Assembly: GCF_900100705.1 (NCBI RefSeq)
Contig: NZ_FNCH01000001.1
Coordinates: 199,163-263,162, forward strand
Source of the DNA: Pedobacter terrae
GTDB taxonomy: Bacteria > Bacteroidota > Bacteroidia > Sphingobacteriales > Sphingobacteriaceae
Length of the DNA stretch: 64,000 nucleotides
Direction: 5' to 3'
Shown: positions 962 through 17,143 of the stretch, in pieces
Layout: every line of letters begins with the position of its first letter
Numbering within the stretch: position 1 is the first letter of the stretch
Notes under the pieces: model-generated
What the model was told of the DNA's origin: nothing
Databases searched by the model: none
The model's input: the letters and a program-made list of their open reading frames with translations, nothing else
Program-made: the position numbers and the translations under genes

Positions 962-2344
962 ATGAAACATTACGACGCAATAATTATCGGAGCGGGGCAG
1001 GCAGGCGTACCATTGGCTAAAAAACTTGCCGAAGCCGGTAAAAAAACAGTTCTTATTGAAAAAAGATTGGTCGGTGGTACCTGTATTAACGATGGCTGTA
1101 CACCAACAAAAGCGATGATCGCTTCTGCAAAAGCTATATATCAGGCTAAAAAAGCCTCCGCATTAGGTGTCGAAATAGGATCTGTCAAAGTTGACTTCAA
1201 TAAAATAAAACAGCGTAAAAACGATATTGTAAATCAGTTTAGATCTTCATCAGAAAAAGGAATTAACGAAACCAAAGGGCTGAGGCTCATTTTCGGAACG
1301 GCAAAATTCAGCGCTGAAAAAGAATTAACCATTAGTCTGAATAACGGTGGCGAAGAAAAAGTAACCGCCGATTGGATTTTTATTAATACCGGAGCAAAAA
1401 CTGCCTTACCAGATATAGAAGGATTGGATGAAATTGACTATCTTACTTCTACAACAATTTTAGATATAGAAACCGTTCCGGAGCATTTGATGGTTATTGG
1501 CGGTAATTATATTGGGCTGGAATTTGGACAAATGTTTAATCGCTTTGGTAGTAAAGTCACCATTTTGGAAAAATCATCAAGTATATTGTCAAGAGAAGAC
1601 GAAGATATTTCATCAGCCCTCACTGAAATTTTAACCGATGAAAAGATCGAAATCATTACGGATGTAAAGATTGATAAAATCAGTCAGGACAAAAAACAGC
1701 TTCATGTATTGCTCCAGTCCGGTAAAACTGCAAAGAACATAACAGCAAGTCATGTACTCGTTGCAGTCGGGCGCATACCGCAAACTGCTGATTTAGGCCT
1801 CGAAAATTGTGGTGTTAAAATGGATGATAAAGGTCATATAATAGTGAATGAAAAACTGGAAACCAATGTTAAAGGCATTTATGCATTGGGTGATGTAAAA
1901 GGAGGGCCAGCCTTTACGCACATTGCCTATAACGATTATACCATTGTTTACCGCAACCTGATCGAAGGCATGAAGTACTCCATTCAGGATCGGCCTGTGC
2001 CATATTGTATGTTTACCGACCCTCAACTGGGCAGGATTGGTATTTCGGAAAAAGAAGCGAAAGAAAAGAATTTGAATTATAAAGTAGCCATGATTCCAAT
2101 GTCGCAGGTGGCACGCGGAATTGAAACCAACGAAACTTTAGGCTTAATGAAGGCGGTTGTAGATCCGGATACGAAAAAGATTTTGGGAGCAGCTATTTTG
2201 GCTTCAGAAGGCGGGGAAATCATGTCTGTTTTGCAAATGGCCATGGAAGGCGATATTACTTACGATAGGATCAGGTATTGCGTTTTTGCACATCCTACCT
2301 ATACAGAATCGCTGAATAACCTATTTATGAAACTCGATAAATGA
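962..2344 (+). CDS. FAD-dependent pyridine nucleotide-disulfide oxidoreductase (mercuric reductase/dihydrolipoamide dehydrogenase-like), first gene of the ergothioneine operon
   Basis: The 460-residue protein has an N-terminal FAD-binding GAGQAG motif (residues 10-15), the redox-active pair C41/C46 in GGTCINDGCTPTK, a second Rossmann fold near residue 180 (GGNYIGLEFG), the FAD motif ALGDVKGG near 310, and the C-terminal His-Glu dyad in HPTYTE (H444, E449). This is the complete class I disulfide reductase layout. It lacks an N-terminal heavy-metal domain and the C-terminal Cys pair of true MerA, so mercury reduction is unlikely. Its stop is one base before the ATPase start, so it is probably co-transcribed with the ergothioneine transport and synthesis genes. 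By analogy with mycothione reductase it could reduce a low-molecular-weight disulfide; that role is inference. Confidence 0.85.
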   Translation: MKHYDAIIIGAGQAGVPLAKKLAEAGKKTVLIEKRLVGGTCINDGCTPTKAMIASAKAIYQAKKASALGVEIGSVKVDFNKIKQRKNDIVNQFRSSSEKGINETKGLRLIFGTAKFSAEKELTISLNNGGEEKVTADWIFINTGAKTALPDIEGLDEIDYLTSTTILDIETVPEHLMVIGGNYIGLEFGQMFNRFGSKVTILEKSSSILSREDEDISSALTEILTDEKIEIITDVKIDKISQDKKQLHVLLQSGKTAKNITASHVLVAVGRIPQTADLGLENCGVKMDDKGHIIVNEKLETNVKGIYALGDVKGGPAFTHIAYNDYTIVYRNLIEGMKYSIQDRPVPYCMFTDPQLGRIGISEKEAKEKNLNYKVAMIPMSQVARGIETNETLGLMKAVVDPDTKKILGAAILASEGGEIMSVLQMAMEGDITYDRIRYCVFAHPTYTESLNNLFMKLDK

Positions 2345-2345
2345 G

Positions 2346-3305
2346 ATGATCGAATTAAAAGAGATAAGCAAGAAATTTGGCGATACCCAGGCGGTGAAGC
2401 AGGTCTCTTTTAGTGTGGCCAGGGAGGAAACATTGGTCTTGTTGGGTACCAGTGGCTGTGGTAAAACCACCACCTTGAAAATGATCAACCGTTTAATTGA
2501 ACCCGATGCAGGGCAGATTTTAATCAACAATGAAAATATCATCGATGAGGATCCCGATGTGTTACGCAAGGGAATAGGTTATGTGATGCAAAATATTGGC
2601 CTTTTTCCACATTATACCATTGCCGAAAACATTGCACTTGTACCAAAACTGTTGAAATGGGATAAGGCAAAAATTGTAAGCCGTACACAAGAACTGATTG
2701 AAAAACTTCATCTTCCGGAAAGTACCTTGACCATGTATCCGCATGAATTAAGTGGCGGACAGCAGCAACGTGTAGGCCTGGCCCGTGCATTGATTACCGA
2801 TCCGTCCGTATTATTAATGGATGAGCCATTTGGAGCTTTAGACAATGTTACCCGCACCAGTATCCAAAAAGAATTTAAGGCTTTAGAGGAGTTGAAAAGA
2901 AAAACCATTGTGATGGTAACACACGATGTTTTGGAAGCCTTTGAGCTTGCAGACAGGATCTGTTTAATGGATAAAGGAGAGGTGGTTCAGATCGGTACAC
3001 CTAAAGAATTATTGTACCAGCCAACAAATGATTTTGCAAAGCGTTTTCTTGCCGGACAGAAGCTTATACTTGAATTCAAAGTTGTTAATATACAGGATAT
3101 CTGGACTTATTTACCTCAAGAAATAGTTCATCGCGGAGAAACTGAAACTGCAGATTTAAGTATATGGGAAGCTATGGAATTATTGCGGAACAAGGATCGG
3201 TCGGAACTGTTCATTTCAGGACCCAACAAAGCCATTAAATCCATTAATTTCGAACAGTTAACCAGCGGATTTAATCAATACCAAAACGCACAACATCATG
3301 AATGA
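2346..3305 (+). CDS. egtV: ABC transporter ATP-binding subunit, OpuCA/EgtV type
   Basis: The 319-residue ATPase has Walker A GTSGCGKTT, the Q-loop MQNIGLFPHYT, signature LSGGQQQRVGLARAL, Walker B VLLMDEPFGALD and a switch His in MVTHD. These are typical of the glycine betaine/choline (QAT) ATPases, to which the ergothioneine importer subunit EgtV belongs. The tail after about residue 235 is shorter than a full CBS pair and shows only a weak resemblance to one. It starts one base after the flavoprotein stop and overlaps the permease by 8 bases. The egtV symbol depends on the neighbouring ergothioneine genes; on its own it would be called an osmoprotectant ATPase. Confidence 0.8.
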   Translation: MIELKEISKKFGDTQAVKQVSFSVAREETLVLLGTSGCGKTTTLKMINRLIEPDAGQILINNENIIDEDPDVLRKGIGYVMQNIGLFPHYTIAENIALVPKLLKWDKAKIVSRTQELIEKLHLPESTLTMYPHELSGGQQQRVGLARALITDPSVLLMDEPFGALDNVTRTSIQKEFKALEELKRKTIVMVTHDVLEAFELADRICLMDKGEVVQIGTPKELLYQPTNDFAKRFLAGQKLILEFKVVNIQDIWTYLPQEIVHRGETETADLSIWEAMELLRNKDRSELFISGPNKAIKSINFEQLTSGFNQYQNAQHHE

Positions 3306-4869
3306 GCAACAGCAAACCTTATGGCAATTTATGTCGGGGCAGTCTGATAAATTGCTCAGTCAAACCTTGCAACATGGAGGTTTAACCTTTATTTCTTTAA
3401 TCCTTGCTATTGCCATCGGTTTACCTTTGGGCATATTGATTGCCAGAAAACGGAAACTTTCGGGGATGGTTTTAGGCATTGCCGGTGTATTGCAAACCAT
3501 TCCAAGTATTGCCTTATTGGGTTTCATGATCCCGGTTTTGGGCATCGGCGCCAAACCAGCTATTGTTGCGTTGCTGATTTATGCTTTGCTTCCAATTATC
3601 CGCAATACCTATACCGGCATTATTGGCATCGATTTACATGTTAAAGAGGCTGCGAGGGCGATGGGCATGAGTAAAGGCCAGATTTTGTTAAAAGTAGAAT
3701 TGCCTCTAGCCATGCCTGTTATTTTAGCGGGGATCCGTACCGCAACTGTGATTAATGTAGGGGTTGCTACTTTGGCTTCGTTTATTGCTGCGGGAGGATT
3801 GGGTGAGTTTATTTTTGGCGGCATTTCCCTCAATAATACCAATATGATTTTAGCCGGCGCCATTCCAGCCGCTTTACTGGCGATTATACTTGATGCTTTA
3901 CTTTCGCTCGTTCAAAAAACGGATGTTAAAAAGTTAAGAAAAGGTTTATACATTTTTCCTGTAATAATTTTGGTTTTAGGTGGGTTTTATGCTTTACCCT
4001 CAGCTTATGGCTCTACCTTAACGGCTGGATTTACACCTGAATTTATGGGCAGGCAGGATGGAGATCTTGGATTGAAATCAACTTATGGCTTAAAGATCCA
4101 TACCATCGTGATCAGCGATGCGGTGATGTACAAAGCTGCTTATGCGAAAGAACTGGATGTAATTAGTGGTTATTCTACCGATGGAAGGTTAAAAGCTTTC
4201 GATCTGAAAATCTTAAAGGATGACAAGAATATTTTTCCGCCTTATTATGCCGCACCCATAGTTCGGGATGAAGCTTTAAAACAGTTTCCCGAACTGGAAA
4301 AAACTTTGAATCTGCTCTCTGGTAAAATTACAGATTCGATCATGACCGATCTGAACTATAGAACAGATTATCTTCATCAGCAACCAGAGCGGGTTGCTAG
4401 GGATTTTCTGATCAGCAAGGGCTTGTATAAAGCGCCTAAAAACGGACACAAAGGCACTGTTCGGATCGGTTCGAAGATTTTTGGAGAACAATATATTCTC
4501 GCAGAAATGTATAGCATGCTGATTAAAGGCAATACACAGTATGCTGTAGCTACCAAAACCGGATTGGGCGGAACTAAAATCTGTTTTGATGCGCTGATGA
4601 ACGATCAGATCGACTTTTATCCCGAATATACCGGGACCGGCCTTTTGGTATTGTTGCAGCCAAATCCAAAAATTGCAAAGGAAATGGCACATGATAAAGA
4701 AAAAACTTACAACTATGTAAGTACTGAATTCGAGAAAAAGTTTAAAATCAAATGGCTCAAACCGATCGGTTTTAACAATTCTTATGCTTTAATGATGCGA
4801 CAAAAACAATCAAAAGAACTGAATGTTAATACCATCACAGACCTTAAAAATTACCTGGATAAAAATTAA
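3298..4869 (+). CDS. egtU: ABC permease fused to a circularly permuted OpuAC-type substrate-binding domain (EgtU-like)
   Basis: Residues 20-230 form a ProW-type permease with about six membrane segments and the EAA loop (EAARAMGMSKGQILLKVELP). The rest is an OpuAC-type binding protein in swapped order. Residues 240-375 match what is normally its second half (DVISGYSTDGR, DLKILKDDKNIFPPYYAAP). Residues 386-523 match what is normally its first half (RIGSKIFGEQYILAEMY, LGGTKICFDAL, YPEYTGTG, GFNNSYALMMR). Permease-binding fusions of this kind import ergothioneine (EgtU) or betaine/choline. Placement directly before EgtB and EgtD favours ergothioneine. The stop TAA shares its last base with the next ATG. 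Confidence 0.8.
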   Translation: MNEQQQTLWQFMSGQSDKLLSQTLQHGGLTFISLILAIAIGLPLGILIARKRKLSGMVLGIAGVLQTIPSIALLGFMIPVLGIGAKPAIVALLIYALLPIIRNTYTGIIGIDLHVKEAARAMGMSKGQILLKVELPLAMPVILAGIRTATVINVGVATLASFIAAGGLGEFIFGGISLNNTNMILAGAIPAALLAIILDALLSLVQKTDVKKLRKGLYIFPVIILVLGGFYALPSAYGSTLTAGFTPEFMGRQDGDLGLKSTYGLKIHTIVISDAVMYKAAYAKELDVISGYSTDGRLKAFDLKILKDDKNIFPPYYAAPIVRDEALKQFPELEKTLNLLSGKITDSIMTDLNYRTDYLHQQPERVARDFLISKGLYKAPKNGHKGTVRIGSKIFGEQYILAEMYSMLIKGNTQYAVATKTGLGGTKICFDALMNDQIDFYPEYTGTGLLVLLQPNPKIAKEMAHDKEKTYNYVSTEFEKKFKIKWLKPIGFNNSYALMMRQKQSKELNVNTITDLKNYLDKN

Positions 4870-6017
4870 TGACACTAGCAGAAGAATACTTACAGATTAG
4901 GAAATATTCCGAACAGGTTTGTGAACCTCTACAAACTGAAGATTACGTGGTACAACCTGTTGTAGATGTTAGTCCGCCCAAATGGCATTTAGGGCATACC
5001 ACCTGGTTTTTTGAAACCTTTATATTAAAACCTTTTTCTGTTAACTATCAGGTATATAACAACGATTATAATTTCGTGTTCAATAGTTATTACGAAACTG
5101 TTGGAAATCGGGTAATCCGTACCGATCGGGGCAATTTAAGCCGCCCAAGCGTGAATGAAATTTATCAGTACCGTGCTTATGTAGATGAAGCCATGGTAAG
5201 TTTTTTAAGTACAACGTTAAATGATGAAGTTAAGGAATTATTGATTTTGGGCTTTAATCATGAGCAGCAGCATCAGGAATTGTTGTTAACTGATATTAAA
5301 TATATTTTAGGTAATAACCCGCTATTTCCGGTTTATGCTAAAGACAAAAAAGAAGTTTTGGCATCTGAAAACGAATCAGGCTGGATCGATATCCCGGGTG
5401 GAATTTACCAAATCGGTTATGAAGGAACCGGTTTTAGCTTCGACAATGAACTGAACAGACATCAGGTTTACCTGCACGATTTTTCTATTAGTAAAACATT
5501 GGTCAGCAATGCCGAATTTTTAGCATTTATCCATGCAGGTGGATATGAAAATTTTAATTATTGGCACGCGGAGGGCTGGGACTGGGTAAAAAGCAATCAT
5601 ATTATATCACCCATGTACTGGCATTTAATTGATGGAGAATGGTTTAATTATACTTTAGGCGGACTTTTACCAATTGCTCCCAATGCAGCGGTAAGTCATA
5701 TAAGTTATTATGAAGCTTATGCCTATGCCAGTTGGAAAGGCATGCGTTTGCCTACTGAATTTGAGTGGGAAGTAGCTGCAAAAAACTTTAACTGGGGCGA
5801 AAGGTGGGAGTGGACAGAAAGTGCTTATCTCCCTTATCCTGGTTTTAGTAAAGCCCCTGGGGCCATTGGCGAGTACAATGGAAAGTTTATGGTCAATCAA
5901 AAAGTACTTAGAGGGGCTTCCGTCGCTACACCACAAAATCATTCACGTATTACTTATCGAAATTTCTTTCATCCACATTTAAGATGGCAATATACAGGCA
6001 TACGCCTGGTAAAATAA
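4869..6017 (+). CDS. egtB: EgtB-like iron-dependent sulfoxide synthase (ergothioneine biosynthesis)
   Basis: The 382-residue protein has an N-terminal DinB-type helical domain followed by a formylglycine-generating-enzyme (sulfatase-modifying) fold. Candidate iron ligands are H43 in HLGHTTWFFE and H131/H135 in HEQQHQE. The C-terminal fold shows IPGGIYQIGY, RLPTEFEWEVAA and the closing WQYTGIRLVK. EgtB joins hercynine to a thiol donor, oxidatively, to give a sulfoxide. No egtA or egtC is nearby, so cysteine may be the sulfur donor rather than gamma-glutamylcysteine; this is inference. It is coupled to EgtU by a TAATG overlap and to EgtD by a one-base gap. OvoA is unlikely because it would carry a fused methyltransferase. 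Confidence 0.88.
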   Translation: MTLAEEYLQIRKYSEQVCEPLQTEDYVVQPVVDVSPPKWHLGHTTWFFETFILKPFSVNYQVYNNDYNFVFNSYYETVGNRVIRTDRGNLSRPSVNEIYQYRAYVDEAMVSFLSTTLNDEVKELLILGFNHEQQHQELLLTDIKYILGNNPLFPVYAKDKKEVLASENESGWIDIPGGIYQIGYEGTGFSFDNELNRHQVYLHDFSISKTLVSNAEFLAFIHAGGYENFNYWHAEGWDWVKSNHIISPMYWHLIDGEWFNYTLGGLLPIAPNAAVSHISYYEAYAYASWKGMRLPTEFEWEVAAKNFNWGERWEWTESAYLPYPGFSKAPGAIGEYNGKFMVNQKVLRGASVATPQNHSRITYRNFFHPHLRWQYTGIRLVK

Positions 6018-6018
6018 A

Positions 6019-6999
6019 ATGATTATGAGCATCACTACCATTGAAATACCAACCGACAACAAAACCCAGTTTCTTCAGGAAACATTAAAAGGGCTACAAT
6101 CTGAACCAAAATTTATGCTTTCCAAGTATTTTTATGATGCTATCGGAGACCGCATATTTCAGCAGATTATGGACATGGAAGAATACTATCTCACTAATGC
6201 TGAAATGGAAATTCTCCAAAACCAGTCTGCACAACTTTCAGAAGCCATATCTGCAGATGGAACAGCCTTTGATCTGATCGAATTAGGTGCGGGTGATGCC
6301 ACCAAGTCTATCTATTTATTAGAATCTCTATTAGATGCTCAAATGGAATTTAGCTATTTTCCAATTGATATTTCTGAACATGTTATTGCCGATCTGGAAG
6401 AAAATTTGCCTAAAAAACTTTCTTCATTGGATATTACAGGCCTAAATGGTGATTATTTTGATATGCTGAAAAAGGCTGCTGAATTGTCTGACCGTAGAAA
6501 AGTAGTATTGTTTATGGGTGCAAATATTGGTAATATGAACGTTGCTGATGCGGAAAGTTTCTGTCTTTCGCTGAAGCAATTGCTTGCTCCAAAAGATCTG
6601 CTCATTATTGGTTTCGACCTGAAAAAAAATCCACAACAGATCCTCGACGCTTACAACGATAAAGGTGGGATTACCAGATCTTTCAATCTAAATTTGCTTC
6701 ATCGCATCAATAAAGAACTTGATGGAGATTTTAATATCGATCAGTTTGAGCATTACGCCAGTTATGATCCGGCATCAGGCGCCTGTAAAAGTTACCTCAT
6801 CAGTTTAAAAAATCAGATCGTAAATATTGGGCACCATGTTATTCAATTTGCCGAAAATGAACATATTTTTATGGAAATTTCCCAAAAATATTCCTTAGAC
6901 GATATTGATCAATTGGCAACAAAAACAGGTTTTAAACCAATTCAGCGCTTTTTTGACCAAAAACAATATTTTGTAGATGCCATTTGGCGGGTAGATTAG
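6019..6999 (+). CDS. egtD: L-histidine N-alpha-methyltransferase EgtD
   Basis: EgtD trimethylates histidine to hercynine with S-adenosylmethionine. The 326 residues show the family signature KYFYDAIGDRIFQQI and EEYYLT, the SAM motif IELGAGDATKS (about residues 88-98), GANIGNM (N172) and the histidine-binding pair E286/S288 in MEISQKY. Another family landmark is SFNLNLLHRINKELDGDFN. The length equals typical EgtD. Start could also be the ATG at 6025. It is the last gene of the operon beginning at 962, and its stop overlaps the stop of the convergent PLP enzyme by four bases. Confidence 0.9.
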   Translation: MIMSITTIEIPTDNKTQFLQETLKGLQSEPKFMLSKYFYDAIGDRIFQQIMDMEEYYLTNAEMEILQNQSAQLSEAISADGTAFDLIELGAGDATKSIYLLESLLDAQMEFSYFPIDISEHVIADLEENLPKKLSSLDITGLNGDYFDMLKKAAELSDRRKVVLFMGANIGNMNVADAESFCLSLKQLLAPKDLLIIGFDLKKNPQQILDAYNDKGGITRSFNLNLLHRINKELDGDFNIDQFEHYASYDPASGACKSYLISLKNQIVNIGHHVIQFAENEHIFMEISQKYSLDDIDQLATKTGFKPIQRFFDQKQYFVDAIWRVD

Positions 7000-8069
7000 T
7001 TCTTCCCATCTAAAACTTGGAGCAGCTGGTTTAAATCTTCTTCCGTATTGTAAAAATGGAAGGAAATCCTGGTACCAGCACCCCTGGGTGAGCACAGAAT
7101 TTTAGCTGCGACTAATTTATCTACTTTTTTTTGATCCAGCGGCATACTCATGATGGTAGATCGATACTTTCTCCCGAGCATCCAATCGGGCACTAATCCT
7201 CTCGCATTTAATGCCAACCTGGCTTGATTACTGAGCGTTTGTGTGGTTTTTTCAATATAATCGAAACCCATTACACCCAGATCATTTAAACTTTCGTTTA
7301 AGGTGCCAAAGTTTAAAGTATCCAGGTGACCGGGTTCGAAACACATCGATAAATGATCTTTTTCTTTTAAAAATGGCGCTGCAGGCAAATTGGTCAATTT
7401 GTTTTTTACATAAATGGCATCTTTCATCTGATCGGATAACATTACATAACCATTTCCGTATCCGGCTAAAAGCCATTTATATCCACTGCCAATTAATGCA
7501 TCTAAGCCCGATTTTTCAAAATTAAAGGTAGTGGTGCCTAAAAACTGAGTGCCGTCGCCAACCAATAACAGGTTAGGGTAGGTTGTTTTTAACTTCCGGA
7601 TAAAATCATCATCCATTCTGAAACCGCTAATGTATTGTACCATGCTAAATGCCAGTATGGTCGGTTTAAACTTTTCAATGGCATTAATGATGTTTTCCTC
7701 TAGTTTCTCATCAATTGGCACATTATGATAATCAAACCCCATACTCATTATGGGGTAACTCACCGAGGGATATTCTTCCTCTAACAATAAAAAACGATGA
7801 TTTCTATCTAATCCATTCAATAAAATATTGAAGCCTAACGAAAAATTCTGAACGAGATAAGTGTTTTCGGGCTTTGATCCAAAATGTTTTGTGATGTTAT
7901 TTCTCACGTCAGTAATAAGGGACATACTTTCCATTTTGAACACGCTTCCACCAGCCACGAACGCTTCGTCATGCTGGGCCCGCCATTCAGCTAAGCTAGT
8001 AGATAAGATGCCCGAATTGGCCGTGTTGAGGTACGTATATTCTTTGAGGATAGGGAAAGATAGGTTCAT
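6996..8069 (-). CDS. Class V aminotransferase-like PLP enzyme, candidate EgtE C-S lyase
   Basis: The 357-residue protein has a fold-type I PLP enzyme layout: LVQNFSLGFNILLNGL for the cofactor phosphate region, the Asp/Gln pair in LLVGDGTQFLG, and the Schiff-base lysine in GSGYKWLLAGYGNGY. Class V enzymes include cysteine desulfurases and the EgtE sulfoxide lyase, which completes ergothioneine synthesis. It lies tail to tail with egtD with a four-base overlap, so it is genetically linked but transcribed separately. The longer frame to 8075 would use TTG, so the ATG at 8069 is preferred. The EgtE role is inferred from context only. Confidence 0.7.
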   Translation of the reverse strand: MNLSFPILKEYTYLNTANSGILSTSLAEWRAQHDEAFVAGGSVFKMESMSLITDVRNNITKHFGSKPENTYLVQNFSLGFNILLNGLDRNHRFLLLEEEYPSVSYPIMSMGFDYHNVPIDEKLEENIINAIEKFKPTILAFSMVQYISGFRMDDDFIRKLKTTYPNLLLVGDGTQFLGTTTFNFEKSGLDALIGSGYKWLLAGYGNGYVMLSDQMKDAIYVKNKLTNLPAAPFLKEKDHLSMCFEPGHLDTLNFGTLNESLNDLGVMGFDYIEKTTQTLSNQARLALNARGLVPDWMLGRKYRSTIMSMPLDQKKVDKLVAAKILCSPRGAGTRISFHFYNTEEDLNQLLQVLDGKN

Positions 8070-8178
8070 GTCCAAATTTAAAAGAAATGTACATTAAAAA
8101 TAAATGCTGCCCGCCAAAATTAATTTTTATACAAACCTATGGGAATCAGGATTGTTGTTTTATAAACGTACAGGCATT

Positions 8179-8658
8179 ATGGAAAGTCAAACCGCAATAT
8201 TGGTTACTGAATTAAAAAAGCTCTTAAACGGGGGCGGAGCACATGTAGGATTTAAGGACGCAGTTGCCAATCTACCTTTTAATCTCCTGGGCGAAAAGCC
8301 TTATAACTTACCCTATAGCATCTGGCAATTGGTAGCGCATATTAAAATCGCCCAATGGGATATGCTGGAATTTAGTAAAAACGGAGCCCATCAATCGCCA
8401 AAATGGCCCGATGAATATTGGGCAAAAGAAGTAATTCCAAAGGACGAGGAAACCTGGAAAAATACCTTAAAGCAAATTGATGATGATCTGCAAGCATTTA
8501 TAGCGCTTTTGGAATCGTCAAATATATACGATACAATACCACATGGCGATGGACAACGTATTTTGACTGAAGCTTTACAGATTGCAGATCACAATGCTTA
8601 TCACATTGCCGAAATTGTCGTCATCAGGCGTTTGTTGGGAGCATGGAAATCTAGCTAA
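8179..8658 (+). CDS. DinB-family protein
   Basis: The 159-residue protein is an all-helical DinB/YfiT-like four-helix protein, with histidines in IWQLVAHIKIAQWDML and in the C-terminal ADHNAYHIAEIVVIRRLLG that match the usual metal-binding triad. Members are metal-binding, often thiol- or stress-related enzymes, of mostly unknown substrate. A frame extends upstream to an ATG at 8104, but similarity begins at the ATG at 8179. It faces away from the PLP gene. Thiol-transfer activity near the ergothioneine genes is possible but not shown. Confidence 0.75.
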   Translation: MESQTAILVTELKKLLNGGGAHVGFKDAVANLPFNLLGEKPYNLPYSIWQLVAHIKIAQWDMLEFSKNGAHQSPKWPDEYWAKEVIPKDEETWKNTLKQIDDDLQAFIALLESSNIYDTIPHGDGQRILTEALQIADHNAYHIAEIVVIRRLLGAWKSS

Positions 8659-8766
8659 CATTAATCTTTGAGGCCAGGCTTTTGCTTCCAAAATAGTAAT
8701 TATTGCAAGGACAATCAGCTAAATTAATTATCCGTTCTCCCAAAAAAGAATTAAAAAAATTAAGTT

Positions 8767-9150
8767 ATGTTACAAAACTCAAAAGCATTCAGTTCATTTT
8801 CTGTAGACGATGTAAGAAAAGCAAAAGAATTTTACAAGGAGGTATTGGGCCTCGAAGTTAAAGATAATCCGATGGGAGTGATTGAAGTGGTGGTTTCGGG
8901 GTCGTCGAATATACTCCTGTACCCAAAACCTAATCATGTTCCGGCAACTTTTACAGTGCTTAACTTCCCGGTAGAAAATATTGATCAGGCTGTTGATGAC
9001 TTGATAGCCAAAGGAGTGAAGTTTGAAATTTATAATCAGGAATCAATCAAAACCGATCAAAAAGGTATTTCCAGAGGAAACGGTGGGCCAGATATTGCCT
9101 GGTTTAGAGATCCGGCAGGCAACATCTTGTCTATATTGGAAACCACCTAG
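8767..9150 (+). CDS. VOC (glyoxalase/bleomycin resistance) family protein
   Basis: The 127-residue single-domain protein shows the VOC beta-alpha-beta repeats: [21 protein letters not shown] at the start and [11 protein letters not shown] at the end. Members bind metals and act as dioxygenases, isomerases or antibiotic-binding proteins. The substrate cannot be read from the sequence. It is a single-gene unit, followed by an inverted repeat that separates it from the convergent ackA. Confidence 0.85.
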
Positions 9151-9160
9151 GCTTAAAAGA

Positions 9161-9205
9161 CTTCTGAAGTTTGCAAAGCGAATGCTATAGCGCAAACTTC
9201 GGAAG
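9161..9205. terminator. Inverted repeat between convergent VOC gene and ackA
   Basis: Arms CTTCTGAAGTTTGC (9161-9174) and GCAAACTTCGGAAG (9192-9205) pair with one mismatch around a 17-base loop. Placement between two stop codons suits a bidirectional terminator, although no strong T-run follows. It may also be an interspersed palindromic repeat. Confidence 0.4.
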
Positions 9206-9213
9206 CCTTGCGA

Positions 9214-10410
9214 TTAGCCTATAAGCCCATAACACTGATGCGCAATTTCATATTCTTCGTTAGTTGGAATAACCAATATTTTAACCTTTGCAGCTGCTGT
9301 GTTAATTTCTTTTAATTCACCTTTGTAAGCTGTATTCAGGGTGGGATCCAATTCAATACCTAAATATTCAAGTTCTGAACACACCGCTGCACGCATGTTG
9401 CTGTCGTTTTCGCCAACACCTGCGGTAAATATAATGGCATCTATACCGTTTAAGACAGCTGCATAAGCGCCGATAAATTTCTTAATCCGGTAAGCATATA
9501 ATTGAATGGCCAAAGTAGCCGCTGCATTGCCTTCATTTATCATTTTTCTAATATCGCGCATATCGCTCGAACCGCCCACACCCAAAAGACCAGACGCTTT
9601 GTTAACCAGCGTACTCAATTGTGCCAAGGTATATCCGGAATGTTCCATTAAATGAAAAATAACCGATGGATCGATATCTCCGGAACGTGTGCCCATCATT
9701 AACCCGCTTAATGGTCCAAACCCCATGCTGGTATCTATCGATTGACCATTTTTGATAGCCGTTATGCTACAACCGTTGCCTAAGTGGATACTGATGATTT
9801 TACTGTCTTTTTGTTTTAACCAATTCACCGCCTGTTCACTTACATACTTATGGCTGGTACCATGAAATCCATACACCCGGATGCCATTTTCTTTATAATA
9901 CGATTCTGGAATGGCATAACGATAAGCCTTTTCGGGGATAGTTTGATGAAAGGCCGTGTCGAATACGGCAATTTGCTTGGCATTTACAAAAGTCTGTTCG
10001 GCTACTTCAATACATTTATAATTCACTGGATTATGTAACGGCGCAAGTGAAAATAACTTTTTGATCTGATGTTTTACATCTTCTGTAATAATGGTCGGCC
10101 CTGAAAAATGTTCACCGCCATGTACCACACGGTGGCCAACAGCTGCAATATCATCCGGACTTGCGATTACTGCATAATCTCCAGCGGTTAATAAGGCCAA
10201 AACCTGTCTTAATGCTTCGCCATGATTAGCTATAAAACCAGATTCTTCTATACTGAATTTTTCGCCATTGCGATAAACCGTATGTTTTATAAAAGAACCT
10301 TCAATGCCAATGCGTTCTACCAGCCCGCTGCAAACAGGTGCTTTTTCTGGCATTTTAAAAAGCTGATATTTTAAGGAACTACTTCCGGAATTGATGACTA
10401 AAATGTTCAT
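9214..10410 (-). CDS. ackA: Acetate kinase
   Basis: AckA interconverts acetyl phosphate and acetate with ADP/ATP. The 398-residue protein begins with the conserved MNILVINSGSSSLKY and carries GFHGTSHKYV, the active-site loop MMGTRSGDIDPSV and FTAGVGEND. The frame extends to an upstream ATG at 10428 inside pta, but the family start is the ATG at 10410. It lies two bases after the pta stop, so the two form an operon. Confidence 0.95.
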   Translation of the reverse strand: MNILVINSGSSSLKYQLFKMPEKAPVCSGLVERIGIEGSFIKHTVYRNGEKFSIEESGFIANHGEALRQVLALLTAGDYAVIASPDDIAAVGHRVVHGGEHFSGPTIITEDVKHQIKKLFSLAPLHNPVNYKCIEVAEQTFVNAKQIAVFDTAFHQTIPEKAYRYAIPESYYKENGIRVYGFHGTSHKYVSEQAVNWLKQKDSKIISIHLGNGCSITAIKNGQSIDTSMGFGPLSGLMMGTRSGDIDPSVIFHLMEHSGYTLAQLSTLVNKASGLLGVGGSSDMRDIRKMINEGNAAATLAIQLYAYRIKKFIGAYAAVLNGIDAIIFTAGVGENDSNMRAAVCSELEYLGIELDPTLNTAYKGELKEINTAAAKVKILVIPTNEEYEIAHQCYGLIG

Positions 10411-10412
10411 GT

Positions 10413-12500
10413 TTAAATGTCTTGACATTGGATTGCTGTAATCACAACAGTATTAAAAATATCATCTACGGTACAACCTCGACTCAAATCGTTTATGGGC
10501 TTGTTCAATCCCTGCAACATTGGTCCAATGGCCAATGCACCGGTTTCCCGTTGTACTGCTTTATAAGTATTATTGCCGGTATTTAAATCGGGAAAGATCA
10601 ATACACTTGCTCTGCCTGCCACTTCAGATCCCGGGAGTTTTTGTTTACCGACAAGTGGGTCTACAGCAGCATCATATTGTATCGGGCCTTCAATTTTTAA
10701 TTCCGGGTGCCTTGCTTTAACGATGGCAGTGGCTTCTCTTACGCGTTCTACATCTTCACCTTCGCCTGATGTACCGGAAGAATAAGATAACATGGCTATA
10801 CGTGGTTCAATACCGAATTTGGCGCTGCTTTCTGCTGAAGAAATGGCTATTTCTGCCAATTGCTGGGCCGTAGGATTGGGGTTAACTGCACAATCGCCAA
10901 ATATAGCCACACGTTCTGGCAGGCACATAAAGAAAATAGAAGAAACGACAGATACGCCTGGCTTTGTTTTAACAAATTGTAAAGCAGGCCTGATGGTATG
11001 CTGCGTGGTGTGAACGGCCCCTGAAACCATGCCATCCGCATCACCTTTATACACCATCATGGTTCCGAAATAAGAAACATCGGTCATCATGTCTCTGGCC
11101 ATTTCCAGGTTTACATTTTTATTTTTACGCAATTCATGTAAGGTATTTACATAATCGCCGTAATGGGCTGAATGGGCGGGATTATGTATTTTTATGCTAT
11201 TGCTATCCAGGTTTAATCCAAGCCTTTTGATGCTGTTAGTAATTTCAGTTGGGTCGCCCAGAAGCGTAATGTCTACAATATCCTGGGTGATGAGTTTTTC
11301 TACCGCCTTTAAAATACGCTCATCATTTCCTTCTGGTAAAACGATATGTTTTTTATCGCGTTTGGCCCATTTAACCAGCTGATATTGAAACATGTGTGGA
11401 GTAATGCCCTGATAGCTAAAGGTGATGATTTTATCATCTAGTGCTTTTATGTCTACATATTTTTCGAAAAGTTCTATAGCCAAAGCAATTTTTTTCTTGT
11501 TTTCGATGGTGATTTTGGAGTGGATCCCGCCAATAGTTGTGGTGGTTTCGAAAGTTCCTTTTGGCACCGCTATAATTGGGATAATCGTCTGTAAGCCTTC
11601 AATCAATTTAATAATGGGCTCATCGGGCAAACTGCCTGCTGTTAAAACAATGCCTGCTATTTTTGGGTAATTGGCTGATAAATTGGCCTGAAGTGCGCCA
11701 ATAATAATATCACCACGATCGCCTGGGGTAACAATAAGCAGGTTATCTTTAATGTGCCTTAAAAAATTGGGTAACATCATGGCACCTGTCACAAAATTAT
11801 CAACCTGATTGTCCAGTAATTCTGTACCAAAAAGCACCTCGCCACCTAAAGCCAACGTAATTTCTTTCATGGTTGGACTTTGCAAACCTGTTTCAGTTGG
11901 AATGACGGCGATCAATAATTCAGCTGGTAACTGATTGCTTAAAGCTTGTTTAATCCGGTCTGCCTCTTCCGGATTTACCATATTTGCCACTACACCTAAA
12001 ACCTGCACATCGCGCAACAAAAAGTTACGGTAAATGTTGATGGCTGATTTAAAAAGCTGACTTGCCGTTTTGTTTTTTCCCGATACAACTATTAAAACAG
12101 GGGCACCTAAGTTTTTGGCCATCAAAGCATTTGATTCGAACTCGAACGCAGTGCCTTCACCCAAAAAATCGCTTCCTTCAATTACGGTAAAATCGTAATT
12201 ATCTTCTAATTTTTTATATTTACTGATGATGGTATTGATAATTCCGCCACTATCTTCTGATTGGTGGAGCATTTCTTGCCGGGTAAAAGCAAAAGCATCC
12301 TCATAGTTAACAGGAAGCGAAAAATAGTCTAACATGGCTTCTACATGTTCATCCTTTTTATTCGGATCATCTTGTGCTATAATGGGTTTAAAATAGCCCA
12401 CTTTTTGGGTTTTTGCCAACAACATATTGATCATCCCGAAAGCAATTACTGATTTGCCTGTGTAAGGTTCGGCTGAGGCAATGAATATATTTTTAGTCAT
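10413..12500 (-). CDS. pta: Phosphate acetyltransferase, long form
   Basis: The 695-residue protein has a BioD-like P-loop N-terminal domain (IASAEPYTGKSVIAFGM), a DRTGG domain near residues 215-330, and a C-terminal PTA_PTB catalytic domain (about 365-690) with VLPEGNDERIL, YSSGTSGEGEDV and DAAVDPLVGKQKLPGS. This is the regulated long Pta type. It makes acetyl phosphate from acetyl-CoA and feeds AckA encoded immediately downstream. The ATG at 12500 (MTKNIFIASAEP) is chosen over a TTG at 12524. Confidence 0.95.
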   Translation of the reverse strand: MTKNIFIASAEPYTGKSVIAFGMINMLLAKTQKVGYFKPIIAQDDPNKKDEHVEAMLDYFSLPVNYEDAFAFTRQEMLHQSEDSGGIINTIISKYKKLEDNYDFTVIEGSDFLGEGTAFEFESNALMAKNLGAPVLIVVSGKNKTASQLFKSAINIYRNFLLRDVQVLGVVANMVNPEEADRIKQALSNQLPAELLIAVIPTETGLQSPTMKEITLALGGEVLFGTELLDNQVDNFVTGAMMLPNFLRHIKDNLLIVTPGDRGDIIIGALQANLSANYPKIAGIVLTAGSLPDEPIIKLIEGLQTIIPIIAVPKGTFETTTTIGGIHSKITIENKKKIALAIELFEKYVDIKALDDKIITFSYQGITPHMFQYQLVKWAKRDKKHIVLPEGNDERILKAVEKLITQDIVDITLLGDPTEITNSIKRLGLNLDSNSIKIHNPAHSAHYGDYVNTLHELRKNKNVNLEMARDMMTDVSYFGTMMVYKGDADGMVSGAVHTTQHTIRPALQFVKTKPGVSVVSSIFFMCLPERVAIFGDCAVNPNPTAQQLAEIAISSAESSAKFGIEPRIAMLSYSSGTSGEGEDVERVREATAIVKARHPELKIEGPIQYDAAVDPLVGKQKLPGSEVAGRASVLIFPDLNTGNNTYKAVQRETGALAIGPMLQGLNKPINDLSRGCTVDDIFNTVVITAIQCQDI

Positions 12501-12982
12501 AATAAAGGCGCAAATGCATATCAATAACGAATTATGCCCAATATAGTTGGAAATATTTATTTTAAAAATTAAAGTGCGTTAAGTTATTTTTTGGTTAATA
12601 CTTTCTAGCTTGTTAGATAAATCGCGATTAAACTAAGTGAAAATGCTTTTCCTGTCCATATAGCTCCATTAGATAATTATTTAATTGTGATGATAATCAT
12701 TTTATTATGCGATCAAAGATAGTTTTCCAAAATGGATTCATGCTTGTCTTAGCACATCCTTAACAGGCTACTATTGACAGAATCCAATAGTCCGGTCGTC
12801 ACTGCAAGGACGAACGACGAAGCAATCTTTCATGTTAGCGATTCTTTGCATAAAGATTGCCCCAAAAATCAGGACAGGCTGTCGGCTGAAAAGCCTTCTC
12901 GCAATGACGATTCCACGAGCATATTCACAAATTTGAATCACAGCCGCAGTTTCTATATTAGTGATTTACTTATTCTAATATC
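12501..12982. other. Intergenic region with pta leader and palindromic repeat pair
   Basis: This 480-base gap holds the AT-rich upstream region of pta (about 12501-12720) and, at 12797-12909, an interspersed element with a CGTCACTGC tip and an opposed TCGCAATGACG tip. Copies of AAGCAATCTT and AAGATTGC inside the element pair with each other. No convincing gene is visible; an open frame here is made of repeat sequence. Confidence 0.6.
12797..12909. repeat. Interspersed palindromic repeat, CGTCAT/ATGACG-tipped (GCAATGACG type)
   Basis: Opposed tips CGTCACTGC (12797-12805) and TCGCAATGACG (12899-12909) enclose GAAGCAATCTTT and AAAGATTGC arms that can fold back on each other. It belongs to the same class as 17049-17143. 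Confidence 0.6.
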
Positions 12983-13201
12983 CTAAATATTTGATTCAAT
13001 TAATAACTTCAACATTTTCAGCCTATGAATAATCGGTACGTTTACTTTTGCATCGGGGTTAAGCTTTAGTGGCATAAGATGGCTTTCCAAAAAATGATCA
13101 TAGTCGGTAATTACCGTTGCCTCATTAAGGTAAATTGGAACCTGCTGCTTACCGGCCTGGGCAAAAAAATCCTCTAATTGCTGTATTTCTTGAATAGTCA
13201 T
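12983..13201 (-). CDS. Small conserved hypothetical protein (DUF6965-like), 72 aa
   Basis: The 72-residue protein has the pattern IQQLEDFFAQAG, QVPIYLNEATVITDYDHFLESHL, then a C-terminal helix HRLKMLKLLIE. This resembles short Bacteroidota proteins that I recall as DUF6965; no function is known. It is a single gene, flanked on both sides by repeat-rich DNA, and starts at a clear ATG. Confidence 0.6.
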   Translation of the reverse strand: MTIQEIQQLEDFFAQAGKQQVPIYLNEATVITDYDHFLESHLMPLKLNPDAKVNVPIIHRLKMLKLLIESNI

Positions 13202-13234
13202 GTTGCAAAGTTAGTGAATAGTTTGGAGTCTAAA

Positions 13235-13646
13235 AGTCAGAAGTCCGATGTCGGAGGTCCGAAGATAGGGTTTCAAATAATAGGCGCCCAGTTCGGTGTG
13301 CTCAGTGTCCTTAATTGTGTTTTTTGTGTTTAATAAAAGTCAGAAGTCCTATGTTGAAGGTCCGAAGATAGGATTTCAAATAATAGGCGCCCAACTTTGC
13401 GCGCTCGGTGCCCTTAATTGTGTCTTTTGAGGTTAATAAAAGTCAGAAGTCCGATGTTGGAGGTCCGAAGATAGGGTTTCAAATAAGAGCCGCCCAGCTT
13501 TGTGTGCTCGGTACCCTTAATTGTGTCTTTTGTGGTTAATAAAAGTCCGGAGTCTGGTGTCGGAGGTCCGAAGATAGGGTTTCAAATAATAGGCATTCGA
13601 CTTTGTGCTAAGTGCCCTTACTTTGGTCCTTTGTGGTTTAAAAAAG
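13235..13646. repeat. Four tandem 103-bp repeats
   Basis: Units begin at 13235, 13338, 13441 and 13544, each starting at AGTCAGAAGTCC or a close variant. Each contains GGTCCGAAGATAGGGTTTCA, a variable GCGCCCA..TTTG..GTGCTC block and a CCTTAATTGTGTCTTTTG block. The period is exactly 103, not a multiple of three, and each unit has stops in frame, so it is not a coding repeat. The fourth copy is the most diverged. The array fills the gap between the DUF6965-like gene and the CoiA-like gene. Confidence 0.9.
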
Positions 13647-13736
13647 TTATGAATTCAAATGCATAGGCTAAATTCTTGTTCTACTAAAAATTTTAGTCTA
13701 AATTTGTATTTCCCTAATTGATTGTTTTTATTGTAA

Positions 13737-14423
13737 GTGCAGAGAATGGATAATGGTGAAATCAGAAAAGATATTCCTGATGATGGATTGCTTCCTGGTA
13801 TTTCATCCCTTAAAAAAGAATATTACCGAAAAGAAACCGTATGGCATCGCGATTGGAAGTTGGCTTTTCCTCCGTCTTTCAGAGAAGTTGCCTTTTATGA
13901 TGCTGCCAATTCCGATCTTCACCGGGCGGATATATTTACCCCCTCTGGTTATACTATTGAATTTCAAAATTCTCCGTTAACACTTGCTGAATTGAAGAGC
14001 AGGGAGTCTTTCTATCCAAATCTGATATGGGTATTGAATGGTAAGAAGTTCAAAGGCTTTAAAATATTGAAACATCTGCCAGATGTGGATGATCCAAAAT
14101 TAGATGCATATGAGTTTTGTCATTCCGATCACCTTTCCATGATTAGGAAAGCAGAGGTAATACAGGGAATAACGAATCCAAAAATACTTAATTTCTATCA
14201 TCCAGAACTGAAAGGAGTTAAACTCACCTCCAACTTATATTCTTTTTGCTGGAAACAACCTCATAGTGTATGGTATGCTGCTACAGCTAAAATTATTGTC
14301 GATTTAGGCGGCCATTTTCTGTATGAACTAAAACAGCGGAAACAATTGAATGGAAATTATCCGTATTTAAAAATGTTGAGTAGAAAAACATTTATTGATT
14401 GGCATACCCCTCCAGAGATTTAG
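13737..14423 (+). CDS. CoiA-like competence/nuclease protein, possibly N-terminally short
   Basis: The 228-residue protein carries WHRDWK (residues 36-41), HRADIFTPSG (62-71) and IEFQNSPLT (74-82), then YPNLIWVLNG. This is the CoiA-type PD-(D/E)xK-like nuclease core, with likely metal-binding D65 and E75-x-Q77. CoiA proteins are linked to competence and recombination in Firmicutes, and homologues elsewhere are poorly understood. The usual N-terminal zinc-binding cysteine segment is absent. The start is GTG at 13737 or ATG at 13746. It is monocistronic beside a repeat array. Confidence 0.65.
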   Translation: MQRMDNGEIRKDIPDDGLLPGISSLKKEYYRKETVWHRDWKLAFPPSFREVAFYDAANSDLHRADIFTPSGYTIEFQNSPLTLAELKSRESFYPNLIWVLNGKKFKGFKILKHLPDVDDPKLDAYEFCHSDHLSMIRKAEVIQGITNPKILNFYHPELKGVKLTSNLYSFCWKQPHSVWYAATAKIIVDLGGHFLYELKQRKQLNGNYPYLKMLSRKTFIDWHTPPEI

Positions 14424-14472
14424 AAATATGTAAATGTAGTAATGAAATTATTCTTTTCACGGAGGTAAAGGA

Positions 14473-14510
14473 CGTCATTTCGAGCGAAACGCAGTGAAGT
14501 CGAGAAATCT
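14473..14510. repeat. Interspersed repeat, CGTCATTTCGAGCG type
   Basis: It begins CGTCATTTCGAGCGAAACGC and ends CGAGAAATCT. The same type recurs at 39217-39254 and, in reverse, at 41902-41934, with an internal GAAGTCGA/CGAAGCCGA variable part. Confidence 0.65.
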
Positions 14511-14605
14511 TTTAAATTGGAATAGCTAAAAATGGGCTTATTAGCCTGAGTTCGATTAATATTTAAAAATTAATGAGCTTTATTAGGACAAATTGCTAGC
14601 CATTT

Positions 14606-14706
14606 CGTCATGCTGAATTTATTTCAGCATCTTTTCCGTTAAAACGCCTTGCTATAAAGACCCTGAAACACCCGTCCGACTGGCCGGGCGGAAGTTCAGG
14701 GTGACG
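14606..14706. repeat. Interspersed palindromic repeat, CGTCATGCTGAA type
   Basis: CGTCATGCTGAATT is followed by a reverse copy (ATTTCAGCAT), and the element closes with GAAGTTCAGGGTGACG. A GC-rich CCGTCCGACTGGCCGGGCGG segment sits inside the second half. Confidence 0.65.
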
Positions 14707-14882
14707 ACCGTTCATGCAGAGTGCCAATGAACCCAAATTAAAGCACATTATTAATCGAACTCAGGTTATTAATAGTTTTAATAAAACTGGGAAGATGTAA
14801 CGAAAGTTAGAAATGAGTTGAAGAATAAAGCAATGGTTTTAAATAATTTACTACAGCCGGTTTAGAAGACTTTTCAAAGAAA

Positions 14883-14943
14883 TCATCATTGAGAGAAGGT
14901 TTCCAAAAAGGTTGGGGAAGCGTATTCCTTTTCTCAATGATGA
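14883..14943. terminator. 17-bp inverted repeat downstream of the DUF4142 gene
   Basis: Arms TCATCATTGAGAGAAGG (14883-14899) and CCTTTTCTCAATGATGA (14927-14943) match with one exception around a 27-base loop. It starts 14 bases after the stop of the minus-strand DUF4142 gene, so it may end that transcript. Confidence 0.4.
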
Positions 14944-14956
14944 CATTTAGCACATG

Positions 14957-15538
14957 TTATTTCATGCTATCTTTAATTTTATTGATCATTTGTAAGTGGC
15001 TTTGAACAATTGGAGCAGTCTTAGTTGCAAAAGCTTTAAGATCTGCATCTTTTCCATCCTTTGATTCATCTTCCATCAGTTTTAAGGTAGACTTATGCCC
15101 ATCAACCATGGCATCTACATAAGCCTTATCAAAATCTGCACCTGTTTTTTTACTTAGGTCTTCCATTTTTTTCTTGTGCTCATCATCTACTGTACTTGGA
15201 AGCGTGATGTTTTTTTGTTTGGCTATCGCCATTAATTCTGTATTTGCCATACCATGGTCTTTAACCATCATGGTTGCAAATTCTTTAACCTGTGGATTAC
15301 TACTTTTGTCGAGGGCCATTTTTCCCAATTCTACTTCAGCCATGCCACCAACAGCTGCCTGTGTGGTGAATTTGGAATCAGCTTCATCTACGGCAATTCC
15401 GCCGGTAGCTGCCGTACTGGTGGTGGTGTCTTTGGCCATGTTTAAACTATCGGCACTTTCTTTGGCATCTTTATTTCCTCCATTACAAGCCTGAAAGGCC
15501 AAGGCAGAAATAGCCATTACATAAATAAACTTTTTCAT
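14957..15538 (-). CDS. DUF4142 domain lipoprotein
   Basis: The 193-residue protein has a lipoprotein signal, MKKFIYVMAISALAFQAC with the lipobox cysteine, then a Ser/Thr/Asp-rich linker and a ferritin-like helical DUF4142 domain (about residues 55-190). The domain shows VGGMAEVELGKMALDKS, VKEFATMMVKDHGMAN and DAMVDGHKSTLKLM. Predicted location is the outer or inner membrane facing the periplasm. The function of DUF4142 is unknown. An ATG two codons upstream (15544) is possible. A second DUF4142 gene lies at 32606. Confidence 0.85.
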   Translation of the reverse strand: MKKFIYVMAISALAFQACNGGNKDAKESADSLNMAKDTTTSTAATGGIAVDEADSKFTTQAAVGGMAEVELGKMALDKSSNPQVKEFATMMVKDHGMANTELMAIAKQKNITLPSTVDDEHKKKMEDLSKKTGADFDKAYVDAMVDGHKSTLKLMEDESKDGKDADLKAFATKTAPIVQSHLQMINKIKDSMK

Positions 15539-15894
15539 ATACATTGTTTTTGTTGTATATGCAGAACACGATTTGCTAGGAAAGGGTTTTAATGTTTTTG
15601 AGATTAGTGGAATCTTATAACAGTCACATGCTCAGAAAACTATTGCTGGTGAAGCTGAAGATTTAAAAGCAAACAGCGAAGAATTGTATTTTTAACCAAG
15701 TGGATAACAACCATTTTAAATGTTAAGCCAATGGTTAAAATTCCGGTAAAAAGGGTAGAAGAGGTTGTGTATTAGTATCCTTTGCTCTTAGCAATCGTCA
15801 TCCTGAACTTGTTTCAGCATCTTTTCTATTCATTTCAGGGTGACGATACAAGAAAAACCTGGATACTCTCCAGATTTTTCTTGTTTAATGCTTT
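15539..15894. other. Intergenic region with one palindromic repeat
   Basis: Upstream DNA of the DUF4142 gene is AT-rich, with no certain promoter. A repeat occupies 15796-15845 beside the 3' end of the coiled-coil gene. I see nothing else. Confidence 0.5.
15796..15845. repeat. Interspersed palindromic repeat, CGTCATCCTGAA type
   Basis: The element CGTCATCCTGAACTTGTTTC ... ATTTCAGGGTGACG is bounded by inverted CGTCATCCTGAA/TTCAGGGTGACG tips. Confidence 0.65.
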
Positions 15895-16095
15895 TTACGA
15901 TTTAACCCGCTTAGCTTTTGGTTCGGGTTTTTCGGGTAATTGGATCGACAAAATCAAATCAATGCTTTCCGAATTAATCTCATAATCGGCCGCAATTTTC
16001 TCCCATCTTTTTAATTCTGCTTGCAAGGTTTCAATTTCCTTGCCTAGTGATTCGATCTTATTCTGGATTGATTTTCTAACGTTCATGTTTGCCAT
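15895..16095 (-). CDS. Small coiled-coil hypothetical protein, 66 aa
   Basis: Residues 8-40 (IQNKIESLGKEIETLQAELK and on) have a heptad pattern for a short coiled coil, followed by a basic tail ending KPEPKAKRVKS. No family is recognised. The start is ATG 16095, or ATG 16086 three codons in. The tail suggests nucleic-acid contact, but this is speculative. Confidence 0.5.
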   Translation of the reverse strand: MANMNVRKSIQNKIESLGKEIETLQAELKRWEKIAADYEINSESIDLILSIQLPEKPEPKAKRVKS

Positions 16096-16137
16096 AACAC
16101 AAAATTAGGATTTGATGGCATATCTTCGAACTTCTTT

Positions 16138-16153
16138 TTGACAGTTATGTCAA
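16138..16153. promoter_or_regulatory. Perfect TTGACA-N4-TGTCAA palindrome, possible Crp/Fnr-type site
   Basis: A 16-base palindrome lies between the divergent coiled-coil gene and the Crp/Fnr gene. TTGA/TCAA half-sites are typical of Crp/Fnr regulators, but the spacing is two bases longer than the classical FNR box. Autoregulation is possible. Confidence 0.35.
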
Positions 16154-16293
16154 TAAAAATTGCTAAGTGTTCTATTTCAGTGGGTTTTATTCTGATAAAA
16201 TTTTTCAACAATGGTGAAGAACCGCCAAATTTGTTTTCGATAGCGTAAAATTGTGCAATCATTTGTTATTTTTACCCAACATCCCTGATAAAC

Positions 16294-16977: not shown

Positions 16978-17048
16978 TCCATTATGGATAATTTACTGCA
17001 AATGGATATTAGCGACATGTATTTTAAGAAAGATTAGCAATGAGGAAT

Positions 17049-17143
17049 CGTCATTGCGAAGCCAATTTTTCATTGGATGAAGCAATCCTAATGCACTCGC
17101 TAGTAGCGATAGTTGTAAGATTACTTCGTGCCTCGCAATGACG
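17049..17143. repeat. Interspersed palindromic repeat, CGTCATTGCGAA type
   Basis: Tips CGTCATTGCGAA (17049-17060) and CCTCGCAATGACG (17131-17143) are inverted, with GAAGCAATCC and GATTACTTCG inner arms. The whole can form a long hairpin between crp/fnr and mobA. Confidence 0.65.

Follow-up and report, generated by a model that had tools for sequence, protein, structure and literature searches.

The only direct enzymatic recycling of ergothioneine that we found in the open-licence literature is that by mammalian selenocysteine thioredoxin reductase (Sec-TrxR), a class I flavoprotein disulfide reductase (FDR), in a report whose available text calls itself the first on the subject (PMC8868364). 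According to this text, ergothioneine disulfide persists for hours at neutral pH and is reduced by Sec-TrxR, which depends on a C-terminal selenocysteine (or cysteine) arm. Glutathione reductase reduces it only with GSH, and selenium-free thioredoxin reductases (TrxRs) show little or no activity, the fruit-fly enzyme having 94-97% less. The sulfenate was suggested there as a possibly better Sec-TrxR substrate. Ergothioneine sulfenate is formed from the sulfoxide by EgtE of M. smegmatis, and passages of the respective study state that it disproportionates without a reductant, that it yields ergothioneine only when DTT is present, and that natural thiols are proposed as the reductants (PMC4493562). 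We found no dedicated bacterial ergothioneine (disulfide) reductase in the open-licence literature. In class I enzymes, electrons pass from NAD(P)H to FAD and on to the disulfide of a cysteine pair. Mycothione reductase is an example of an FDR that serves a single microbial thiol. The active site of HOSCN reductases is said to have a pair of lysines, K13 and K16 (Har numbering). For Har it has been proposed, in the part of the paper available, that the first cysteine forms a sulfenylthiocyanate which is resolved by the second (PMC11107202), so the RclA/Har branch can probably act on an S-O bond.

The window (the whole stretch of 64,000 nucleotides that was analysed) carries a compact cluster of five genes starting at position 962:

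962-2344, forward strand: class I flavoprotein disulfide reductase of 460 amino acids with an ATG start, proposed oxidised-ergothioneine reductase
2346-3305, forward strand: ABC transporter ATPase (proV/OpuA-like), partner of the EgtU-like transporter (TIGR01186 321.4 against a cutoff of 326.6; PF00005)
3298-4869, forward strand: permease fused to an EgtU-like substrate-binding domain (BPD_transp_1 and OpuAC)
4869-6017, forward strand: EgtB, the C-S bond forming iron enzyme (TIGR03440, 545.5 bits against a cutoff of 360)
6019-6999, forward strand: EgtD, histidine N-alpha-methyltransferase (PF10017, 321.5 bits; TIGR03438 277.9 against a cutoff of 290.9)

EgtD falls slightly under its NCBIfam cutoff, yet is clear by Pfam. 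The successive junctions are a 1-base gap, an 8-base overlap, a 1-base overlap and a 1-base gap, a spacing that suggests co-transcription of the five genes. The closest upstream ORF of at least 80 amino acids on the same strand stops 538 bases before the reductase. Together with the spacing, this bears out an earlier sequence-only reading in which the reductase headed an ergothioneine operon; the transporter pair before EgtB had not been named there. The order is widely conserved. Among loci from named genomes, the best 80 of 475 candidates, the complete five-gene order was found in 71, which is far beyond chance. These candidates came from the sole search that reached other phyla; the best 80 are all from Bacteroidota and belong to Pedobacter, Mucilaginibacter, Olivibacter and unclassified Bacteroidetes, a selection that favours close, linked relatives. 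Elsewhere among the 80, only the first one to three partners were visible in six loci (L151, L152, L173, L191, L196 and L197), some of them at contig ends, one locus had no transporter (L155), one had none of these genes in the stretch (L198), and one carried EgtD and EgtB on the opposite strand (L182). The last locus, from Pedobacter miscanthi, is a second ergothioneine island (9956-17643), in which a second reductase copy is followed on the opposite strand by EgtD, an MFS-like transporter (by eye) and EgtB, with hydrolase-like and TetR-like genes (by eye) around them.

The protein has the following marks of its class:

1082-1099, forward strand: redox-active CINDGC motif with C41 and C46, both cysteines present in all 110 family rows
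2006-2008, forward strand: C349, an extra cysteine present in 109 of 110 family rows and in 1 of 18 distant relatives (L234)
2291-2308, forward strand: H444-E449 acid/base dyad within HPTYTE, from the sequence and the ortholog alignment

C41 and C46 were read from GGTCINDGCTPTK. All 21 aligned orthologs and all 110 family rows have both cysteines as well as H444 and E449. Of the 112 rows wanted for this comparison, L162 and L107, which come from the same genome and contain N stretches, were left out; the remaining 110 hold 108 distinct sequences, since some genomes were reached by two routes, as also in the transporter comparison below. Pfam matches over the full length were to Pyr_redox_2 (4e-65) and Pyr_redox_dim (PF02852, 8e-27), an FAD motif (GAGQAG) and an NAD(P)H motif are present, and the AlphaFold model has a mean pLDDT of 90. 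The closest named relatives are from Pedobacter. The hallmarks of MerA are a C-terminal cysteine pair and, often, an N-terminal HMA domain. No heavy-metal-associated domain was found among the Pfam matches at E <= 0.001, and the C-terminus (NNLFMKLDK) has zero cysteines; the arm on which Sec-TrxR depends is missing as well. Mercuric reductase was rejected on these features and on its TIGR02053 score (380.8 against 454.45). By sequence and predicted fold, the protein is confirmed as a class I flavoprotein disulfide reductase, and the earlier claims of a C41/C46 pair, an H444/E449 dyad and missing MerA-specific features all hold.

To learn how far the reductase follows ergothioneine metabolism, we surveyed 221 genomes of the family of the window as defined by assigned codes, whose named members suggest Sphingobacteriaceae. 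With thresholds of E <= 1e-140 for the reductase and E <= 1e-60 for EgtB, the reductase was found in 87 genomes and EgtB in 115: both in 85, the reductase only in 2, EgtB only in 30 and neither in 104. EgtB accordingly occurs in 85/87 genomes with the reductase and in 30/134 without it (Fisher p 2e-32, kinship ignored). By genus, it was present in 9 of 9 genera with the reductase and 5 of 16 without (p 0.001). EgtB follows the reductase on its strand at a distance of up to 6 kb in 71 of the 85 genomes, mostly at ~2.5 kb, which is the length of the two transporter genes. Another set of 59 genomes (36 of the same genus, that of the window included, and 23 others) gave a similar picture: a reductase of at least 52% identity was present in 25, all of the same genus, while the remaining matches at E <= 1e-60 reached 34% identity or less. 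EgtD was found in 25/25 same-genus genomes with the reductase against 1/11 without (G025), and each of the 24 genomes with the EgtU-like fusion also had the reductase. A role of the reductase in ergothioneine metabolism is therefore very probable, given this co-occurrence and the several gene arrangements described below.

We propose that the protein acts as an NAD(P)H:oxidised-ergothioneine reductase, with a probability of roughly 0.5. For the substrate, the choice of coenzyme, the direction and every catalytic step we infer the following scheme. NAD(P)H would reduce FAD, which in turn would reduce the C41-C46 disulfide. C41 would attack the substrate sulfur of ergothioneine disulfide, ergothioneine sulfenate or a mixed disulfide with another cell thiol, with H444/E449 from the other subunit giving a proton, and C46 would resolve the intermediate and release ergothioneine. 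Ergothioneine could be recycled in this way whether home-made (EgtD-EgtB-lyase) or imported (EgtU-like), and sulfenate released by the C-S lyase could be cleared as well. Ergothioneine disulfide is a plausible substrate, and the sulfenate or a mixed disulfide fits equally. The oxidised-ergothioneine reading is supported by the reduction of HOSCN, with its S-O bond, by close relatives of the same fold. It is also supported by the available texts stating that the EgtE product is a sulfenate needing a reductant (PMC4493562), and that the disulfide lasts for hours and is reduced by Sec-TrxR (PMC8868364). As glutathione reductase needs GSH and the selenium-free TrxRs show little or no activity in the latter text, direct action of a plain dithiol enzyme cannot be taken for granted, and cell thiols such as bacillithiol could reduce oxidised ergothioneine without the reductase. 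The best mechanism we can offer is nevertheless that the enzyme reduces an oxidised ergothioneine species directly, at about even odds.

The sequence-only reading had proposed a reductase of ergothioneine disulfide or of a hercynyl disulfide. Its link to ergothioneine metabolism is strongly supported by the co-occurrence and the gene arrangements; the hercynyl variant is not, as hercynine has no thiol. It had also regarded a dedicated reductase as new. That would hold for a bacterial enzyme that is both dedicated and selenium-free, whereas enzymatic reduction of the disulfide as such is not new, since Sec-TrxR already performs it in the text cited (PMC8868364). The idea that Bacteroidota have an ergothioneine redox cycle driven by NAD(P)H and closed by a selenium-free dedicated reductase, with synthesis, uptake and recycling in one operon, has in our judgement slightly less than an even chance. 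If the proposal is true, ergothioneine would be an enzyme-maintained redox buffer, like glutathione or mycothiol, and part of the large uncharacterised branch of 'FAD-containing oxidoreductases' would gain a function. The reductase, which accompanies ergothioneine genes in numerous genomes of Pedobacter and Mucilaginibacter, is a simple, purifiable candidate that allows a genetic test, and it is a possible reagent for measuring oxidised ergothioneine.

The transporter, a candidate ergothioneine importer, also counts in favour of the proposal. The best solved relative of the fusion protein is EgtUC, the ergothioneine-binding domain of S. pneumoniae (7e-60), and the two halves of this domain were aligned in reversed order:

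4015-4431, forward strand: binding-domain segment placed first, matching EgtUC chain residues 138-276 (second half)
4456-4851, forward strand: binding-domain segment placed second, matching EgtUC chain residues 7-134 (first half)

Residues 240-378 of the fusion protein match the second half of EgtUC and residues 387-518 the first, and the binding domain appears from this alignment to be circularly permuted. Swapped halves are known in other betaine-binding proteins. In the available text of the EgtU paper, permutation is mentioned for a GFP sensor only (PMC9732360). The 11 EgtUC contacts given in that text were placed through an offset derived from the EgtUC alignment. They were compared in 110 rows (98 distinct sequences), namely the window and 109 of 120 loci with a match of at least 40%, after exclusion of 11 with fewer than 450 aligned residues or a stop. 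Eight contacts are kept in all 110 rows (K242, T296, N339, Y341, E375, R379, Y419 and Y443) and three are changed in all (G244F, T274G and F293Y). The window transporter shares with EgtU of S. pneumoniae the permease-binding domain fusion and 8/11 contacts, and differs from it in the permuted domain and the three replacements. The F293 switch and G244, described as affinity determinants of EgtU in the same text, are both altered; some EgtU relatives in Helicobacter pylori are reported there to import ergothioneine at lower affinity (PMC9732360).

Rearranged loci helped to separate recycling from a mainly synthetic role, in which the reductase would act on the sulfenate from the C-S lyase and not on spent ergothioneine. 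Ten reductase entries with an incomplete or odd locus all had EgtB (G031 and G607 are the same genome, so nine are distinct). The reductase was kept with EgtB and EgtD, in that order, where no transporter was found (G031), as a synthetic role would have it. Against such a role, it also accompanies the transporter alone, apart from EgtB-EgtD, either directly before it with EgtB elsewhere (G011, G027 and G604) or convergent with it (G416 and G447); a further genome has the order EgtD-FDR-transporter-EgtB (G490). Among 16 unusual family loci, 14 from genomes with EgtB and two from those with the reductase only, two were convergent with the transporter, one preceded the transporter and EgtD, one preceded a transporter cut by the contig end, and twelve had none of these genes in the stretch. 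Ten of these twelve had EgtB elsewhere in the genome; G530 and G467 lie near a contig start. The EgtU-like transporter was found in 12 of 17 genomes, comprising the 16 family genomes with an unusual locus or no EgtB and one from another family (G304). The 30 genomes with EgtB and no reductase likewise speak against a synthetic role, and they also weigh against the proposal as a whole. The EgtU-like transporter is encoded in six of them: five belong to genus g25, and the sixth is G422, in which the egt genes lie on a contig fragment of 3.4 kb. Three of the g25 genomes (G493, G529 and G570) carry EgtD-EgtB-ATPase-permease fusion operons without the reductase, which is therefore not essential; they form a natural comparison group. 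The reductase is a frequent, dispensable partner of ergothioneine that is tied to neither synthesis nor uptake alone, and in our judgement recycling fits this best.

The synthetic role also draws support from genes resembling EgtE. In six genomes (G005, G012, G017, G018, G022 and G023), the reductase is directly preceded by a same-strand EgtE-like class V PLP gene, at 17-77 bases in five and 361 in the sixth (counted from the end of the match), and the lyase requires a reductant to yield ergothioneine alone, according to the available text (PMC4493562). In the Mucilaginibacter-type loci L171 and L181, a relative with 37-38% identity lies on the opposite strand, ~2 kb past EgtD. The EgtE-like protein of L109 scores 140 bits against the EgtE cutoff of 400, and slightly better as SufS (155), so its lyase role is deduced from position. 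Matches to the EgtE model TIGR04343 were found in 40 of 41 genomes and 13 of 14 controls, none above cutoff; such scores prove nothing, and the matches beside the reductase were used on position. In the genome of the window, the best EgtE match scores 58 bits and lies elsewhere, and none is close to the operon. Another PLP enzyme is found there:

6996-8075, reverse strand: class V aminotransferase-fold PLP enzyme, convergent with egtD (PF00266), following the operon in 31/80 loci (best 80 of 475)

This protein has no match to the NCBIfam EgtE model and 22% identity over ~250 amino acids to the EgtE-like upstream protein, and the case for it as a possible C-S lyase is weak. A gene for a DinB-like protein (8104-8658) adjoins it. 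Overall, we consider it unlikely that the reductase serves mainly synthesis.

Also unlikely is a detoxifier of the RclA kind, acting on HOSCN, HOCl products or Cu(II) and merely co-expressed with ergothioneine in a stress module. It finds some backing in the relatives: E. coli RclA and S. aureus MerA head the solved proteins in sequence similarity, and of the four E. coli references in a tree computed without L162, RclA is the closest, with Lpd, Gor and SthA outside (100/99; long-branch warning). In this tree the family reductases group at 89/88 (not starred), with one distant row, L234, inside. RclA is, moreover, annotated as a cupric reductase, and ergothioneine binds copper according to the available text of PMC9732360. 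RclA, Har and S. aureus MerA share with the window reductase 34-37% identity, the class I fold, CxxxxC, the His-Glu dyad and a single FDR unit with no added domains. The window protein differs in the extra C349, the linkage to ergothioneine genes and the lack of the active-site lysines. Position 13 is Q in 110/110 family rows, and position 16 is K in 1/110 (L116) and elsewhere V, T, G, I, S, A, N, L or M, with V in the window. HOSCN reductase was rejected on these residues and on scores of 392.1 and 385.0 bits, far under the equivalog cutoffs of 740 and 650. Finally, ten neighbour proteins scanned around seven lone reductase copies were not stress genes as a group and showed no other common theme.

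The coenzyme site reads E203-K204-S205 and the arginine pair of NADPH enzymes is missing, which by a rule quoted in PMC11107202, as far as its available text goes, points to NADH or dual use; NADH use is likely common to RclA, Har and S. aureus MerA. In the GxGxxG of the NAD(P)H site (reductase residues 180-185), the second Gly is replaced by Asn in 85 of 110 rows (GGNYIG), an unusual substitution. C349 presumably aligns with the glutathione reductase residue that touches the nicotinamide. A trimethylammonium pocket formed by D44, Y447 and E388 would be speculation: E388 is present in 17/18 distant relatives too, and D44 in just 100/110 family rows. The two reductase-only genomes, G430 and G491, in which neither EgtB nor the transporter was found at the cutoffs used, count against the proposal. 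In their residues they provide one case each way, T47, E388, N452 and N453 being altered in the reductase of the former and unaltered in that of the latter.

The reductase might instead act on another low-molecular-weight disulfide, such as bacillithiol disulfide, cystine or CoA disulfide, with ergothioneine merely benefiting, which we regard as quite improbable. Production of another thiol is probable, as BshC (bacillithiol) was found in 39 of 41 genomes; BshC occurs with and without the reductase alike, whereas the reductase tracks EgtB. Models for reductases of other thiols all scored far below cutoff. Glutathione reductase was rejected on the missing NADPH arginine pair and on scores of 263 against 606, 232 against 556 and 296 against 480, mycothione reductase on TIGR03452 (263 against 635.65) and NF005884 (305.7 against 501), and the CoA-disulfide reductase models were far from matching as well. 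The top NCBIfam model over the full length was NF004992 (PRK06370, 'FAD-containing oxidoreductase'), with 527 bits against a cutoff of 629; it names no function. Lower-ranked models, all sub-cutoff, were oxidoreductases of the same name, Lpd, RclA, HOSCN reductase, MerA, mycothione reductase and glutathione reductase. Foldseek with the reductase model gave Lpd 6uzi first, followed by S. aureus MerA, RclA, MerA and Har among others, with TM-scores of ~0.9. A stray paralog of lipoamide dehydrogenase or mercuric reductase is very improbable despite the top Foldseek match and a narrow miss on TIGR01350 (400.9 against 408.8). Lipoamide dehydrogenase was rejected on that score and on the position of the protein apart from the Lpd clade, which unites two other Lpd-like proteins of the genome with E. 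coli Lpd (100/99; long-branch warning). A scan of nine genes at 962-12524 found no 2-oxoacid dehydrogenase, and the HMA domain and C-terminal cysteine pair of mercuric reductase are absent.

Co-occurrence with ergothioneine genes was weaker outside the family than within. In the phylum sample outside the family of the window, 21 reductase relatives were found at E <= 1e-125, with 39-49% identity plus one of 60% (G304), and we do not claim a shared function for them. EgtB was present in 14 of these 21 genomes against 75 of 317 phylum genomes without such a relative (p 7e-5, kinship ignored), and in 0 of 20 of their locus stretches (the 21 minus G238). One of the distant relatives is found in genome G206 (L242), in which no EgtB was detected at E <= 1e-60. 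Past this relative and a sigma-70-like gene, the locus encodes, at 6135-6869 on the reverse strand, a short protein in which an AhpD-like domain is joined to the C-terminal half of an EgtD-like methyltransferase; next comes a protein with three rhodanese stretches.
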